Shown one piece after another: positions 7,422 through 57,924 of a stretch of 64,000 bases of DNA. Position 1 is the stretch's first letter. Every line of letters starts with the position of its first letter. The translations under genes and the position numbers were made by a program. The notes under the pieces were generated by a model. The model searched no databases. It was not told the origin of the DNA and was given only the letters and a program-made list of their open reading frames with translations. The stretch comes from Sphingomonadales bacterium (GTDB lineage Bacteria > Pseudomonadota > Alphaproteobacteria > Sphingomonadales > Sphingomonadaceae): the NCBI GenBank assembly GCA_027491235.1, contig JAIXWO010000026.1, positions 1 to 64,000 of the forward strand, read 5' to 3'.

Positions 7422-8204
7422 TCAGGCCGCGGCATGATCGCGCGCCATGGCCCTAGACTCTCGGTGGAAGAGAAGAGCTTGCGCGATGGTGGCTGTCAGA
7501 ACCGCTGCGTCGAAAGGCTTGGTGATAAGGTAGGTCGGCTCCGGCCGCTCCCCAGTCAGCAACCGTTCTGGAAAGGCCGTCACGAAAATGACCGGCACGT
7601 CGATGCTTCCCAGAATATCCTTTACGGCATCGATTCCGCTCGATCCGTCGGCCAGACAGATGTCGGCCAGAACCAGCTCCGGTTTGCTCTCCCGCGCCAT
7701 CTTAACGGCTTCGTGATGGGTGCGCGATACGCCGATGACCTTGTGGCCGATCTCACGCAGAATCGATTTGATGTGGAGCGCGATGATCGCCTCATCTTCA
7801 ATGACCATCACGTCCGAGCACAGTTCATCGGCGAGATGCGTCCGTGCCTCTTCAACGTCATCACGCACCTCGTCGGCCGAGATGGCGAGAATACCGGCCG
7901 CTTCATTGACCGAGAAGCCCTCGACGGCGGTCAGCAGCAGCGCCTGGCGCGATCGGGGTGTAAGGTGAGCAATAGGCCCGGAGGACTTCAACGCAGAAAT
8001 CGTTTCCGACCGCCACAGATGGTGGAAGATGCGATAGAGTTCGAGTCGAGGCGGCCGCGTCACATCGAATTCACGGGGGGATACAAGGAGAGCCTCCAGC
8101 GTTTCCCGAACGGCCGCATCTCCCTGATCGGAAGCCCCGGTAACCGTGCGCGCGTAACGTCTCAGATATGGCAGCTCAGCTGCGACAGATCTCATGAATG
8201 GCAT
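7422..8204 (-). CDS. phyR: General stress response regulator PhyR
   Basis: This 260-residue protein has the unusual PhyR order: a sigma-like domain (about 1-125), then a receiver domain. The receiver has acidic residues in VIEDEA, phospho-acceptor D181 in LVLADICLADG, and K229 in TKPF. The segment VIFVTAFPERLLTGERP is the FATGUY-type region typical of PhyR receivers. When phosphorylated, PhyR's sigma-like domain binds the anti-sigma factor NepR and frees EcfG (family knowledge). It is divergent from nepR-ecfG, the standard arrangement. A sigma-EcfG-like promoter (GGAAC-N16-AGTT) reads into it from 8254. The start at 8204 gives full family length; a second ATG three codons in is possible. Confidence 0.95.
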   Translation of the reverse strand: MPFMRSVAAELPYLRRYARTVTGASDQGDAAVRETLEALLVSPREFDVTRPPRLELYRIFHHLWRSETISALKSSGPIAHLTPRSRQALLLTAVEGFSVNEAAGILAISADEVRDDVEEARTHLADELCSDVMVIEDEAIIALHIKSILREIGHKVIGVSRTHHEAVKMARESKPELVLADICLADGSSGIDAVKDILGSIDVPVIFVTAFPERLLTGERPEPTYLITKPFDAAVLTATIAQALLFHRESRAMARDHAAA

Positions 8205-8229
8205 ATGCCCTCCCGCTTCCTTCGATCCA

Positions 8230-8254
8230 AACTGCTCACTTTTGAAAATGTTCC
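8230..8254 (-). promoter_or_regulatory. Candidate sigma-EcfG promoter of phyR
   Basis: On the minus strand GGAAC (8254-8250), a 16-base spacer, and AGTT (8233-8230) match the sigma-EcfG consensus GGAAC-N16/17-CGTT with one mismatch in the -10 element. It is 26 bases from the phyR start and back-to-back with the nepR promoter. Confidence 0.6.
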
Positions 8255-8262
8255 ATCAGCTT

Positions 8263-8287
8263 GGAACATACGCGCCCGAGATCCGTT
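8263..8287 (+). promoter_or_regulatory. Sigma-EcfG promoter of nepR-ecfG
   Basis: GGAAC at 8263-8267, 16 bases, then CGTT at 8284-8287: an exact match to the consensus known for EcfG-type sigma factors. It lies upstream of nepR, so the sigma factor and its anti-sigma factor would be autoregulated, as is usual for this module. Confidence 0.8.
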
Positions 8288-8404
8288 TGTGCCTCCGACG
8301 AAGCAGGCAGATCCCGCGACCGGGGGTGCGTCAGCGTGACAAGTTTGATCAAGACGGACATCGTGAGCAAGACCGCATCCATGTATCTGCAGGAGTCCAT
8401 CTCG

Positions 8405-8596
8405 ATGCCGGAGGAGACCATGCCCGAAAGGGACCTAAAGTCAGTCAAGGAGGCGGTGATCGCTGTCGATGATCCTATTGGTAAGGCGTTGCGCCGACTC
8501 CACGATGAAGTGGTGGCTGAACCTATCCCCGAGGAATTCTTGCGTCTTTTGGGGGAAATCGAACGCAAGCTGAATGGAGCGGTGGCGTCGGAATGA
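8405..8596 (+). CDS. nepR: Anti-sigma factor NepR
   Basis: This 63-residue protein contains the NepR core PIGKALRRLHDEVV followed by IPEEFLRLL, two amphipathic helices that wrap EcfG or, after stress, phosphorylated PhyR. I chose the ATG at 8405 because CAGGAG lies 9 bases upstream and the length fits the family. Other in-frame ATGs at 8381 and 8420 are possible. Its stop overlaps the ecfG start (ATGA), so the anti-sigma factor and sigma factor are translationally coupled. Transcription likely begins at the sigma-EcfG promoter at 8263-8287. Confidence 0.9.
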   Translation: MPEETMPERDLKSVKEAVIAVDDPIGKALRRLHDEVVAEPIPEEFLRLLGEIERKLNGAVASE

Positions 8597-9168
8597 ATGA
8601 TCCGGCACCAAAAACTGTCCCGCTGGATGACAAGGATTTTCGGGATCAGCTGGTTGCAATTATTCCGTCGCTTCGCGCGTTTGCCCGCGGTCTGTGTGGA
8701 ACGCGGGATATGGCGGACGACATGGTGCAGGATGCCATGACCCGCGCTTGGGCAGCGCGGCAGAGTTATGCTGCAGGGTCAAACTTCCGCGCGTGGATGT
8801 TCATGATCCTGCGCAATCATTACTATACAACGCTGCGCAAAAATGCGCGGATGGTGTCTTGGGATCCTGAAGTGGCAGAGCGTGTGCTCGTTGCTGGCCC
8901 GACGCAACAGGATGGCCTCAATGTCCAGGACGTTCAGAAGGCGCTCCTGAAACTGCCTGCCGAACAGCGTGAAGTTCTCCTCCTCATTGGCGCAAATGGT
9001 GTCTCCTATGAGGAGGCGGCCGACATTATGGGATGCGCGATTGGCACCATCAAGAGCCGACTGGCGCGCGGCAGAGTTGCACTGACGGCGCTTATTGACG
9101 GCCCTGCATACAAGGATGAGCCCTCTAAAAAGCGGCCAAGGTCCTCCGCGATCAGTCCGACGGGGTGA
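8593..9168 (+). CDS. ecfG: ECF sigma factor EcfG (general stress response)
   Basis: This 191-residue sigma factor has a region 2 (about 22-90, with ADDMVQDAMTRAW and FRAWMFMILRN) and a region 4 (about 115-165, with LPAEQREVLLL, then YEEAADIMGC and GTIKSRLARGR). The layout is that of EcfG/ECF15-type sigma factors, which direct the alphaproteobacterial general stress regulon and are held by NepR. It is coupled to nepR upstream, and its stop overlaps the GTG start of the kinase gene downstream. A 20-residue basic tail (KKRPRSS) follows region 4. Confidence 0.94.
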   Translation: MNDPAPKTVPLDDKDFRDQLVAIIPSLRAFARGLCGTRDMADDMVQDAMTRAWAARQSYAAGSNFRAWMFMILRNHYYTTLRKNARMVSWDPEVAERVLVAGPTQQDGLNVQDVQKALLKLPAEQREVLLLIGANGVSYEEAADIMGCAIGTIKSRLARGRVALTALIDGPAYKDEPSKKRPRSSAISPTG

Positions 9169-10577
9169 CGCGCCGGGCGCCCTATCTGCGCAAACGGCCA
9201 ACGCTTGCGGTGATATTGTGGCTTAGTGTCGGGACAGCTCTTTTGCCCATTGCTCTGTTCAGCCTCTATCAGTCGAAAACAGCTTGGGAGTTGTTCGATC
9301 ATTTGAGGAGCGAGCGGCTTGTCGCCGCAGCCTCCACGACGGCACTTGAATGGCGCCGCGTCCTGCCGGTCCCGCCCTTGGTCGACCGGTCCGACACAAG
9401 ACCGCAGGGCGGCTCTACTCCGTCAATAGAGTTAGCCCTAATGGAGCGTTCTCTGATCGCTCATCGCCTCTCGCCTGAGGCGGTGGTCGGATTGGCTGAC
9501 CCATCTGGCAAAATCCTCACAAATGCCGGCCGTTCAGATTTGGGCGGTATTGACCCGCAAGCATCCTTCGGCCGCGCCGCGCTGAAGCGGGGGCGGGGCG
9601 GGGCGGAATGGATTTACGCATCGGCCCCGCTGACTGAGGGCCAATTATATGTCTTCTATGCCGAACCCTTGGACAGGACGTTCGGCCTGATGGGTCCGCC
9701 CTTTCGATCTGGTCCCTTCATCGCCTTGGGGGTCCTCCTCCTGACATGTGGTGTGCTTTGGCTCTCGCTTGATCGTTTCGTTCTCCGTTGGCTGCGACAC
9801 GGAGGGCGGCGTGTGCGACAATTGGCAGAAGGCAATTACAGCGAGGATCGCGGCTTGTTTAGGGCGGCACCTCTCGAGTTGCGGCGCCTTGGCAGCAATT
9901 TGGATGACGTGGCCCGCTCGGTTGACCGGCGCGACCAGGCTTTGCGTCGCGCGCTTGCAGCCAAGGATGCCATGGCGCGTGAGGTTAACCACCGGGTGAA
10001 GAACAACCTGCAAATGATCACCAGCATTGTCAGCCTGCAGGCATCTCGACTGTCAGACCCGGAGGCACGCCGCCTCATGATGCAGACAGGGCTGCGGGTG
10101 GGCGCTTTGGCGCTGGTGCAGCGCCTGATCTACGAGGTTGATGAGAGTGAACAGGGCGTTGTGAATACCGGCCGCTTGTTTTCGGAACTGTGCGATCAGG
10201 TCCAAGCCAATTTCCAGCCCTCCAAAGTCCAGCTTTCCTGCCGGTCCAATCTGGGCGTGATCTCTGGTGATCATGCGGTTTCAACAGCGCTGATCGTCAT
10301 TGAGGCGGTGACAAATGCCTTGCGCCACGGCTTTCCCGGCGATCAAGGCGGGACGATCAACGTTCTGTTGGAGGCCGCAGGGGAAGACGGGCTTTTGACG
10401 ATTTGCGATGACGGCATTGGCGCAAGCGATGAGGATGATCCGCCGGGTATGGGGCTTGAACTGATCCGCGCCCTTACGTTGCAATTGGAGGGGCATTTGA
10501 CCCTTTCCCAAACGACAGGTGGTGGACGGACTGTTTCCGTTCGCTTTCCCTGTCAGGAGGCGGTGGCTTTAAGTTGA
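9165..10577 (+). CDS. PhyK-type sensor histidine kinase (HisKA_2/HWE-like)
   Basis: This 470-residue kinase has a helix at 14-34, a periplasmic sensing region (about 35-180), a second helix (184-204), a HAMP-like linker, and a HisKA_2 box with H276 in EVNHRVKNNLQM. A short HATPase_c domain (N in EAVTNALRHGF, DDGIGA, GMGLELI) completes it. HisKA_2/HWE kinases encoded next to phyR-ecfG usually phosphorylate PhyR. The GTG start overlaps the ecfG stop by 4 bases, placing it in the same operon. It is convergent with the receiver gene, whose stop overlaps this stop by 9 bases. The signal it senses is unknown. Confidence 0.88.
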   Translation: MTRRAPYLRKRPTLAVILWLSVGTALLPIALFSLYQSKTAWELFDHLRSERLVAAASTTALEWRRVLPVPPLVDRSDTRPQGGSTPSIELALMERSLIAHRLSPEAVVGLADPSGKILTNAGRSDLGGIDPQASFGRAALKRGRGGAEWIYASAPLTEGQLYVFYAEPLDRTFGLMGPPFRSGPFIALGVLLLTCGVLWLSLDRFVLRWLRHGGRRVRQLAEGNYSEDRGLFRAAPLELRRLGSNLDDVARSVDRRDQALRRALAAKDAMAREVNHRVKNNLQMITSIVSLQASRLSDPEARRLMMQTGLRVGALALVQRLIYEVDESEQGVVNTGRLFSELCDQVQANFQPSKVQLSCRSNLGVISGDHAVSTALIVIEAVTNALRHGFPGDQGGTINVLLEAAGEDGLLTICDDGIGASDEDDPPGMGLELIRALTLQLEGHLTLSQTTGGGRTVSVRFPCQEAVALS

Positions 10578-53987: not shown

Positions 53988-54731
53988 CTACTTCCCAGCC
54001 GGCACCCCCGGCTGCACTTTCTTCGCCACATATTCCACGAAATCCTTGGAATAGGCGTCGCGCAGTTCGGCCTTGGCCGCGTCCACCATCTCAGGCGTTT
54101 TGGGCGGGAAGTTTTCCAGCGGATTCTTGACCTGGCCGGTTGCGGTCTTGGTCGCCTTGGGCGTGTCGCCGAATTCGCGGTAGATCCAGCCGGTGAACAG
54201 GTTTGATCCGTACATCATCGCCTTGTGGTAGAAGATGTGCGTGGTGACGAGTTCAGCATAGCAGGGGTGTTTTGAGTCGGTCAGGCGCTCTCCCGCCTTG
54301 ATCTTGGCGTTCATCGCCTTGACCTTGGCCTTCAGCTCCGGATTGGTTTTCAAGTCTTCATTGAACGGCGTCGGCGCCTCTACGATGATCTTGTAATCCT
54401 GCAGCCGGAGCGTCTTCTGAATGCCGAGCTTGTTGAGCTCCTCCATCTGAACGTCCGGCCCCAGATAGTCGCGCATCAAGTCCTTTGTCGTTTTCACCCG
54501 GCCGTCATGCGCGGCCATGTCTGCCACAGCACCGACAATGCCAAAGCCCGAAAGCAGCCCCATCTGGATACCGATATAGTTTTCCGTCGGCCACACGTGC
54601 AGTTCGCACTTGGCGGTGTCTTCTGTCAGCGTTGAAGCGACAGGGGCCGGTGCTGTTGTGTCCTGCGCGAGAACGCATGTGCTCGAAAGCAGGGCGGCAG
54701 ATGCTGCCGCTACTTTGAATTTCTTCGTCAT
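53988..54731 (-). CDS. Secreted protein of unknown function
   Basis: This 247-residue protein has a signal peptide (residues 1-22, ending CVLAQ) and a largely helical mature part with two cysteines (KCELHVW and HPCYAEL). A glycine-rich hydrophobic stretch (GLLSGFGIVGAVADMAA) follows the first cysteine and might embed in a membrane. I recognise no enzymatic motif. It stands alone on the minus strand. Confidence 0.75.
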   Translation of the reverse strand: MTKKFKVAAASAALLSSTCVLAQDTTAPAPVASTLTEDTAKCELHVWPTENYIGIQMGLLSGFGIVGAVADMAAHDGRVKTTKDLMRDYLGPDVQMEELNKLGIQKTLRLQDYKIIVEAPTPFNEDLKTNPELKAKVKAMNAKIKAGERLTDSKHPCYAELVTTHIFYHKAMMYGSNLFTGWIYREFGDTPKATKTATGQVKNPLENFPPKTPEMVDAAKAELRDAYSKDFVEYVAKKVQPGVPAGK

Positions 54732-54830
54732 ATTGCGCGCCCCTCAAATCTCTTCTCACCAGAGGCACCATTTATCCCGAGATATCGCGCTTTTCAACAA
54801 TCGGCGCGGATGGGATATTCCCCTGGCCCC

Positions 54831-54869
54831 CAAAAAATGACCCCACCGGTCGATTGGCCGGTGGGGTCA
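54831..54869 (-). terminator. Strong intrinsic terminator (minus strand)
   Basis: Read on the minus strand, TGACCCCACCGG pairs perfectly with CCGGTGGGGTCA (12 bp) and is followed by TTTTTTG. No minus-strand protein gene ends here; it most likely terminates the structured RNA upstream. Confidence 0.85.
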
Positions 54870-54910
54870 GATTTGGCAGGCGTGATGGGGGTGGCTGAAA
54901 GCCGGTCATC

Positions 54911-55083
54911 GCGCCCAGTGGATCAGCGCGCGGGGGCAAATGCACGCCAATCCGTTCTTCGGTCATATGGGTACCCTTGCGACCCGCAGGCACCCGATTT
55001 GATAACGGTGGACGCCCCAACTTATTCCCGTTGGAGGCAGACGAATTTCGTTGGCACTATGTCTTGCCCCCGCCGCTGGGCGC
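54911..55083 (-). ncRNA. ssrS: Structured RNA, probable 6S RNA
   Basis: About 173 bases on the minus strand fold into a long rod: outer GCGCCCAG/CTGGGCGC, a perfect 10-bp closing stem GCGGGGGCAA (55073-55064) with TTGCCCCCGC (54939-54930), then GTGCCAA/TTGGCGT, an open region containing CCAACGGGAATAAGTTGG, and an apical hairpin GGGTGCC-TGCG-ggt-CGCA-a-GGGTACCC. This closing stem, bubble and apical arm is the 6S RNA plan, and segments such as TTCGTC and CGGGAATAAG recall alphaproteobacterial 6S sequences from memory. 6S RNA binds sigma-70 RNA polymerase in stationary phase. The name is tentative; a structured RNA here is much surer. Confidence 0.55.
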
Positions 55084-55121
55084 TGCCACGAAGGCGGCGC
55101 ACAAAATAGGAGAGACAAACC

Positions 55122-55409
55122 ATGGGTGCCATGATCATTTTTATTCGCGAACGCATTCGTGATGCGGGCGAAATGGAAGTTTACGGGCAGAAGGCCGGGC
55201 CGACGCTGGCTGGTCATCCCGGAACGCCGCGGGCCTTTTACGGGCCATGCGAAACGCTGGAAGGCGCGCCTGTTGACGGTGTTGTCGTCATTGAATTTCC
55301 CGACATGGCCGCCGCGCGTGCCTGGTATGACAGCCCAGCCTATGTCGAAGCGCGCCAGCACCGGCATCTCGGGTCCGACTATCGCGTCGTCATCACCGAA
55401 ACGCTCTGA
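55122..55409 (+). CDS. DUF1330 family protein
   Basis: This 95-residue protein has the DUF1330 (dimeric alpha/beta barrel) pattern: FIRERIRDAGEM, then VVVIEFPDMAAARAWYDSPAY and a final Y-R-V-V-I. Function is unknown. GGAGAG lies 8 bases upstream of the ATG. It is divergent from the structured RNA. Confidence 0.88.
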   Translation: MGAMIIFIRERIRDAGEMEVYGQKAGPTLAGHPGTPRAFYGPCETLEGAPVDGVVVIEFPDMAAARAWYDSPAYVEARQHRHLGSDYRVVITETL

Positions 55410-57373: not shown

Positions 57374-57649
57374 TTAGTTGGGCCACTCCCGATGGACATC
57401 GACAATGGCAAGGACGGTGACGTCTTCGCCCAGTCGATCATAGATCAGCTTATATTTGGGGTGCACGACCAGTTCGCGCGTCTCGAGCCGGGCGCCGAGG
57501 GTTGAGCCAGCGCCAAGCTCTGCAAGCGTATCAACCCCCTCTTCAAACAGCATATCAAGGGCGTCCGCCGCAAAGATACTGTCCTTTGCGGTAAACGCAA
57601 AAATGGCAATGCGATCCGCTTCGGCAGAGACGGTCCAACGGACGTTCAT
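57374..57649 (-). CDS. ParE/RelE-family toxin
   Basis: This 91-residue protein has the RelE/ParE fold pattern (VRWTVSAEADRIAIFAF, TLAELGAGSTLGARL, the R-E-L-V-V-H-P-K-Y-K-L-I-Y-D segment and V-D-V-H-R-E-W-P). ParE toxins act on gyrase and RelE toxins cut mRNA; the sequence does not decide which. Its start overlaps the antitoxin stop by 4 bases. Confidence 0.85.
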   Translation of the reverse strand: MNVRWTVSAEADRIAIFAFTAKDSIFAADALDMLFEEGVDTLAELGAGSTLGARLETRELVVHPKYKLIYDRLGEDVTVLAIVDVHREWPN

Positions 57650-57924
57650 ATCGCGGCGGCCCGTGCGGCAGCGCGATATCGGGCGAAGCGGGCTTTCATG
57701 TCATTATGATCATAGATCCGGCCAGCCGCCACATCGGCGCGCGCGCGCCGTAACTTGGCGGGAAGCCAGCCTGCGGCGACAGCGACTGCATCCTGTTCGG
57801 CGATGAACTGGCGCATTGCAGCCCGCAGAATTTGGGCCGCCGGACGGTCAGCCGCCTTTGCGGACTCCACAAACGCCCGCTTGAGATCGTCATCAACGCG
57901 GAAGGTGAAGGTGGCATCACTCAT
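57646..57924 (-). CDS. Antitoxin (ribbon-helix-helix type)
   Basis: This 92-residue protein starts with an RHH-type DNA-binding segment (FTFRVDDDLKRAFVESAK, then QILRAAMRQF) and has a charged C-terminal tail (DHNDMKARFARYRAAA) likely to bind the toxin. It is upstream of the toxin and probably represses their common promoter. The following 176 bases up to the TPR gene are AT-rich and should hold divergent promoters. Confidence 0.85.
   Translation of the reverse strand: MSDATFTFRVDDDLKRAFVESAKAADRPAAQILRAAMRQFIAEQDAVAVAAGWLPAKLRRARADVAAGRIYDHNDMKARFARYRAAARAAAI

Follow-up and report, generated by a model that had tools for sequence, protein, structure and literature searches.

A predicted small RNA, probably under an ECF26-type sigma factor, at a sphingomonad locus once read as 6S RNA

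The locus and its conservation

The locus lies in the window (the whole 64,000-nucleotide stretch of Sphingomonadales DNA that was analysed), between a plus-strand DUF1330 gene (55122-55409) and a minus-strand gene for a 247-aa secreted protein (53988-54731). Its most likely product is a hitherto undescribed small regulatory RNA (sRNA) of ~165 nt, read from the minus strand (54834-54998), the start of which was inferred from the position of a promoter and the end from that of a terminator. The promoter is of the ECF type and reads GGAATAAG-N13-CGTT (55028-55004, minus strand): the -35 element, GGAATAAG (55021-55028), matches the ECF26 motif GGAATA, and the -10 element (55001-55007) comprises CGTT (55004-55007) and a downstream ATC. 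The terminator hairpin (54838-54869) has a perfect 12-bp stem (54869-54858 with 54849-54838) followed by a T run on the minus strand, as had been pointed out in a preliminary description of this DNA.

A DNA search of 98 relatives of the source genome (G000) recovered two orthologues of the locus, both within the same genus, one in the uncultured Sphingomonadales MAG bin-3719 (G009, 96% complete; 90% identity over 289 bases) and one in Chakrabartia godavariana PRB40 (G008). Both adjoin the same divergent DUF1330 gene, with identities of 93% and 88%, respectively. The conserved block spans GGAATAAG to the terminator T run, and the -35 element and CGTT are identical in the three genomes. The promoter box columns are invariant at 12 of 12 positions, compared with 5 of 13 spacer columns (Fisher p 0.0016). 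The source genome and the MAG differ at 6 of 165 transcript positions versus 14 of 90 in the upstream spacer (p 0.0012). The locus has the general features of a trans-acting sRNA gene: it has its own promoter and an intrinsic terminator, and its body is conserved whereas no reading frame is, with the caveat that the five changes after the ATG of one candidate frame between the source genome and the MAG all fall at third codon positions.

A covariance model of the RNA, run against 298 genomes of the family, gave convincing matches in these three genomes alone, with none in other members of the genus, and rerunning it at higher sensitivity on 22 relatives revealed no convincing further RNA. Weaker matches (G160, G003, G011, G014 and others) were read individually; they lack the promoter and the first hairpin and correspond either to coding sequence or to the terminators of other genes. 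With filters off, the intergenic region of a further relative with the same neighbouring genes (G012) contained no convincing homologue, and a search of plasmids for the locus returned no match. As the RNA was detected in just three of the genomes searched, it may be restricted to one lineage, newly gained, often lost, or elsewhere too diverged to be seen.

Predicted structure and the 6S assignment

Fold prediction for the source sequence gave three hairpins and the intrinsic terminator, and RNAalifold recovered the same architecture from the three sequences together. Hairpin 1 (54969-54995, minus strand; GGGUGCC-UGCGGGUCGCAAGGGUACCC) is nearly invariant, with 100% of cells paired and a single pair changed, from G-C to A-U. 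Hairpin 2 (54920-54953, minus strand) has a 12-bp stem in the source genome; across the three genomes, 94% of its cells are paired and one pair has changed on both sides. Its C-rich apical loop, AUUUGCCCCC, is the proposed target-pairing site, and GCCCCCGC is kept in all three genomes. The apical GGCUUUnAGCC of hairpin 3 (54877-54915, minus strand) is conserved, and its basal stem is rearranged in C. godavariana, where the tip alone is kept. The terminator stem is kept in all three genomes with two compensated pairs. The preliminary description had proposed a check for covariation in relatives. Across the three genomes, both partners have changed in six base pairs of the predicted RNA; shuffled controls averaged 2.0 such pairs and sliding the pairing gave 0 or 1, although with three sequences the sample is small.

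The longer rod that had been described over this region fared less well. Its perfect 10-bp closing stem exists on the minus strand (55073-55064 with 54939-54930; GCGGGGGCAA and TTGCCCCCGC). However, the outer arm (55064-55073) is substituted in the MAG and has no counterpart in C. godavariana; it also lies upstream of the likely promoter and was judged to be outside the RNA. The 3' arm of the same stem is the C-rich loop of the shorter hairpin. Against dinucleotide shuffles, the 265-nt minus-strand stretch 54831-55095 shows excess fold stability (z about -3.9), but its 96 nt at 55000-55095 show none (z -0.58), and the rod was therefore rejected as a unit. The predicted RNA itself (54834-54998) has a z of -4.5, which falls to -2.1 when the terminator is removed (-1.8 in the MAG and 0.0 in C. 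godavariana), so the excess stability derives mostly from the terminator. Because little or no excess is left without it, the case for an sRNA rests mainly on the promoter, the terminator and sequence conservation. A fold is predicted for the plus strand too (z -2.8), as expected of a complementary strand; a plus-strand leader of the DUF1330 gene was considered and discarded, since the conserved promoter and T run indicate the minus strand.

The preliminary description had proposed that the minus strand encodes a structured RNA that has its own terminator and is not explained by a protein gene, and had named it 6S RNA in an unusual place. The structural part is borne out by the conserved promoter, body and terminator; the name is not. 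The locus resembles 6S RNA (RF00013) in size class and in its long, GC-rich fold with a terminator. However, the Rfam 6S covariance model, run around the locus, gave no match at E<=10, and a genuine 6S RNA was found elsewhere in the same genome with RF00013 (40.5 bits; G000:C22:253324-253480, L001 1501-1657). The neighbourhood of zapA and the folate cyclo-ligase gene is the usual position of 6S RNA in many bacteria, and the 6S gene of this genome, like that of relatives, occupies that classical site, in the order zapA, 6S, 5-formyl-THF cyclo-ligase; from reading their sequences, we take the flanking ORFs to be ZapA-like and 5-formyl-THF cyclo-ligase-like. The locus described here is not at that position. 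It is thus almost certainly not a 6S gene, and rejecting the call corrects a name that would mislead annotation. A 6S match was obtained in 13 of 13 genomes of the genus (32-61 bits), with only that of G002 (61.3 bits) above the Rfam cut-off of 46.4. Standard annotation would consequently miss the 6S RNA of this genus, which falls below the gathering cut-off in 12 of the 13 genomes. At gathering thresholds, Rfam 15 gave no match anywhere in the window. SNORA77 (30.1 bits, cut-off 42) and BjrC80 (21.2 bits, cut-off 80) matched the locus below threshold, leaning on the terminator hairpin, and were dismissed.

An ECF26-like sigma factor and its probable promoters

A sigma factor gene that could account for the promoter lies ~257 kb from the sRNA on the same contig (G000:C17:311810-312298), beside a gene for an anti-sigma-like protein and, in divergent orientation, a gene for an S8 protease. 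The ECF26 -35 consensus is GGAATA, and a serine protease is divergent from the ECF26 gene (PMC6180224). As its GGAATA boxes and divergent serine protease match these published features, the sigma factor was named ECF26-like, an assignment that also takes the neighbouring anti-sigma-like gene into account. C. godavariana has the same full arrangement, with a sigma factor of 81% identity, and GGAATA-type boxes were also found upstream of related sigma genes in four other genomes (G014, G015, G060 and G072).

A genome-wide pattern search for GGAATA-N15-CGTT returned seven sites in the source genome, although about three per genome would be expected by chance alone. Four of the seven cluster within 2.5 kb at the sigma locus, as two divergent pairs (G000:C17:311666/311739 and 314060/314120), upstream of the ECF sigma gene, the S8 protease gene, a gene for a repeat peptide and one for a 319-aa protein that looks secreted or outer-membrane-like. 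C. godavariana has six GGAATA-N15/16-CGTTNT sites, every one of them at either the sigma locus or the locus of the sRNA and a small peptide. The sRNA promoter fits the ECF26 -35 consensus and, with its GGAATA and a -10 containing GT, has the same boxes as the promoters found in this genome before the sigma gene, two envelope genes and the S8 protease gene.

The locus of the sigma factor, anti-sigma-like protein and S8 protease (L090 4142-8466; G000:C17:310141-314465) also contains an RGADD-repeat peptide, with GGAATA-N15-CGTT promoters throughout. Small secreted peptides (GEGHWSIGNGVQCRVILGVVVCSK in C. godavariana) with an ECF26-type promoter were seen in three genomes (L005 1716-1966 in C. 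godavariana, L127 and L129). At the sRNA locus of C. godavariana, a second ECF26-type site marks such a peptide, and similar peptides occur in the MAG and in G015.

Alternative readings and proposed function

Taken together, sequence and gene context suggest that the locus is probably a stand-alone minus-strand sRNA gene driven by an ECF26-type sigma factor, with the RNA acting in trans as part of a response to envelope or periplasmic stress. The closest competing reading keeps the same sRNA but places it under EcfG, the general-stress sigma factor, as a functional counterpart of Caulobacter GsrN. A complete general stress response (GSR) locus does lie in the window (7422-10577), with phyR on the minus strand (7422-8204) and nepR (up to 8596), ecfG (8593-9168) and a HisKA_2/HWE kinase gene (9165-10577) on the plus strand. 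Its nepR gene has a consensus promoter, GGAACATACGCGCCCGAGATCCGTT (8263-8287; GGAAC-N16-CGTT), with the same spacing as the sRNA promoter, and GsrN likewise has a C-rich loop (PMC5869019). Moreover, and this is the weak point of the ECF26 reading, neither the ECF26 gene nor the S8 protease gene was found in the MAG (96% complete), which despite this keeps two ECF26-type promoters, that of the sRNA among them, and an EcfG-like gene. However, the sRNA promoter has GGAAT in all three orthologues rather than the GGAAC-N16-CGTT of the GsrN type, and AAC is almost invariant in the EcfG -35 box of Sphingopyxis (76 of 79 promoters; PMC7083833). The A that follows GGAAT and the CGTTAT end of the promoter fit the ECF26 set instead, and the locus is 46 kb from ecfG. 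The discovery of the GGAATA set at the ECF26-like locus demoted the EcfG reading, and control by EcfG now appears unlikely.

Two further readings concern the transcript rather than its sigma factor. It could be a short mRNA for a ~45-residue peptide from ATGACCGA (MTEERIGVHLPPRADPLGAMTGF... in the source genome; ATG at 54966, minus strand), in which hairpin 1 hides the ribosome site, or it could be a dual-function RNA. The AAGGG and ATG are conserved in all three genomes, the frame is open to the terminator in all three, and all five substitutions after the ATG between the source genome and the MAG are at third positions (p 0.004 by position alone), so this is a serious rival. Those five substitutions are nevertheless also compatible with the RNA structure. 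In addition, a net 4-base shift in hairpin 2 breaks the frame in C. godavariana, restoring it only near the end, such that its peptide shares little with the others beyond MT[DE], and the frame in the window has no stop before the terminator; on balance, a coding role is improbable. A cis-acting leader or attenuator of the gene at 53988-54731 would be consistent with that gene lying on the same strand about 100 nt downstream, with the terminator between. Yet each genome has something different after the terminator: the window continues with the 247-aa gene, the MAG with a convergent PEP-CTERM-like gene and C. godavariana with a small secreted peptide gene that has its own promoter. G012, for its part, has the gene neighbours without the RNA. 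A leader function is thus very improbable. Past the sRNA terminator, at about 54795-54822 on the minus strand, a second, weaker GGAAT-N17-TGTT-like site was noted upstream of the 247-aa secreted protein gene.

For the preferred reading, a trans-acting sRNA under an ECF26-type sigma factor, we infer expression, sigma dependence, mode of action and targets as follows. A sigma factor of the ECF26 kind would start transcription from GGAATAAG-N13-CGTT, yielding a ~165-nt RNA that would end at its own intrinsic terminator. The exposed C-rich loop AUUUGCCCCC would probably pair in trans with G-rich translation-start regions, and the single-stranded AUGACCGA linker may do so too. In this way, the RNA could extend a stress response of the envelope or periplasm to the post-transcriptional level. 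Loop pairing is the most likely mechanism by analogy with GsrN and with RpoE-dependent sRNAs. GsrN, a sigma-EcfG-dependent sRNA of Caulobacter, pairs through a C-rich loop with a G-rich leader (PMC5869019). Its likeness to the RNA predicted here lies in an alphaproteobacterial origin, an ECF-type promoter and a C-rich loop. It differs in its -35 element (GGAAC, compared with GGAAT here), and the present RNA does not adjoin the GSR locus. RybB, MicA and MicL of Escherichia coli are RpoE-dependent sRNAs (PMC8103513), and the present RNA would work like them, by giving an ECF response to envelope stress an RNA component.

The ECF26 regulons of Sinorhizobium meliloti, those of RpoE1, RpoE4 and RpoE6 (PMC6180224, PMC3511301), resemble the system described here in the -35 GGAATA, a CGTT-like -10, a divergent serine protease and an adjacent anti-sigma gene. 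They differ in that no sRNA with an ECF26-type promoter has been reported there; the one correlated sRNA, SMa_sRNA_10, has a promoter without an ECF26 match (PMC6180224). Nor did the papers searched yield an sRNA with an ECF26-type promoter. While ECF-controlled sRNAs are a known kind, an ECF26-type regulator may be new for them. We tentatively suggest that this could be the first sRNA transcribed directly by an ECF26-type sigma factor, forming, in a poorly understood ECF group, a post-transcriptional arm like that of RpoE with RybB and MicA, and possibly also encoding a short peptide. If confirmed, the RNA would offer a handle on the role of the ECF26-like sigma factor in sphingomonads.

Elsewhere in the window, a ParE-like toxin gene was observed on the minus strand (57374-57924), with an overlapping small upstream ORF that is likely its antitoxin.
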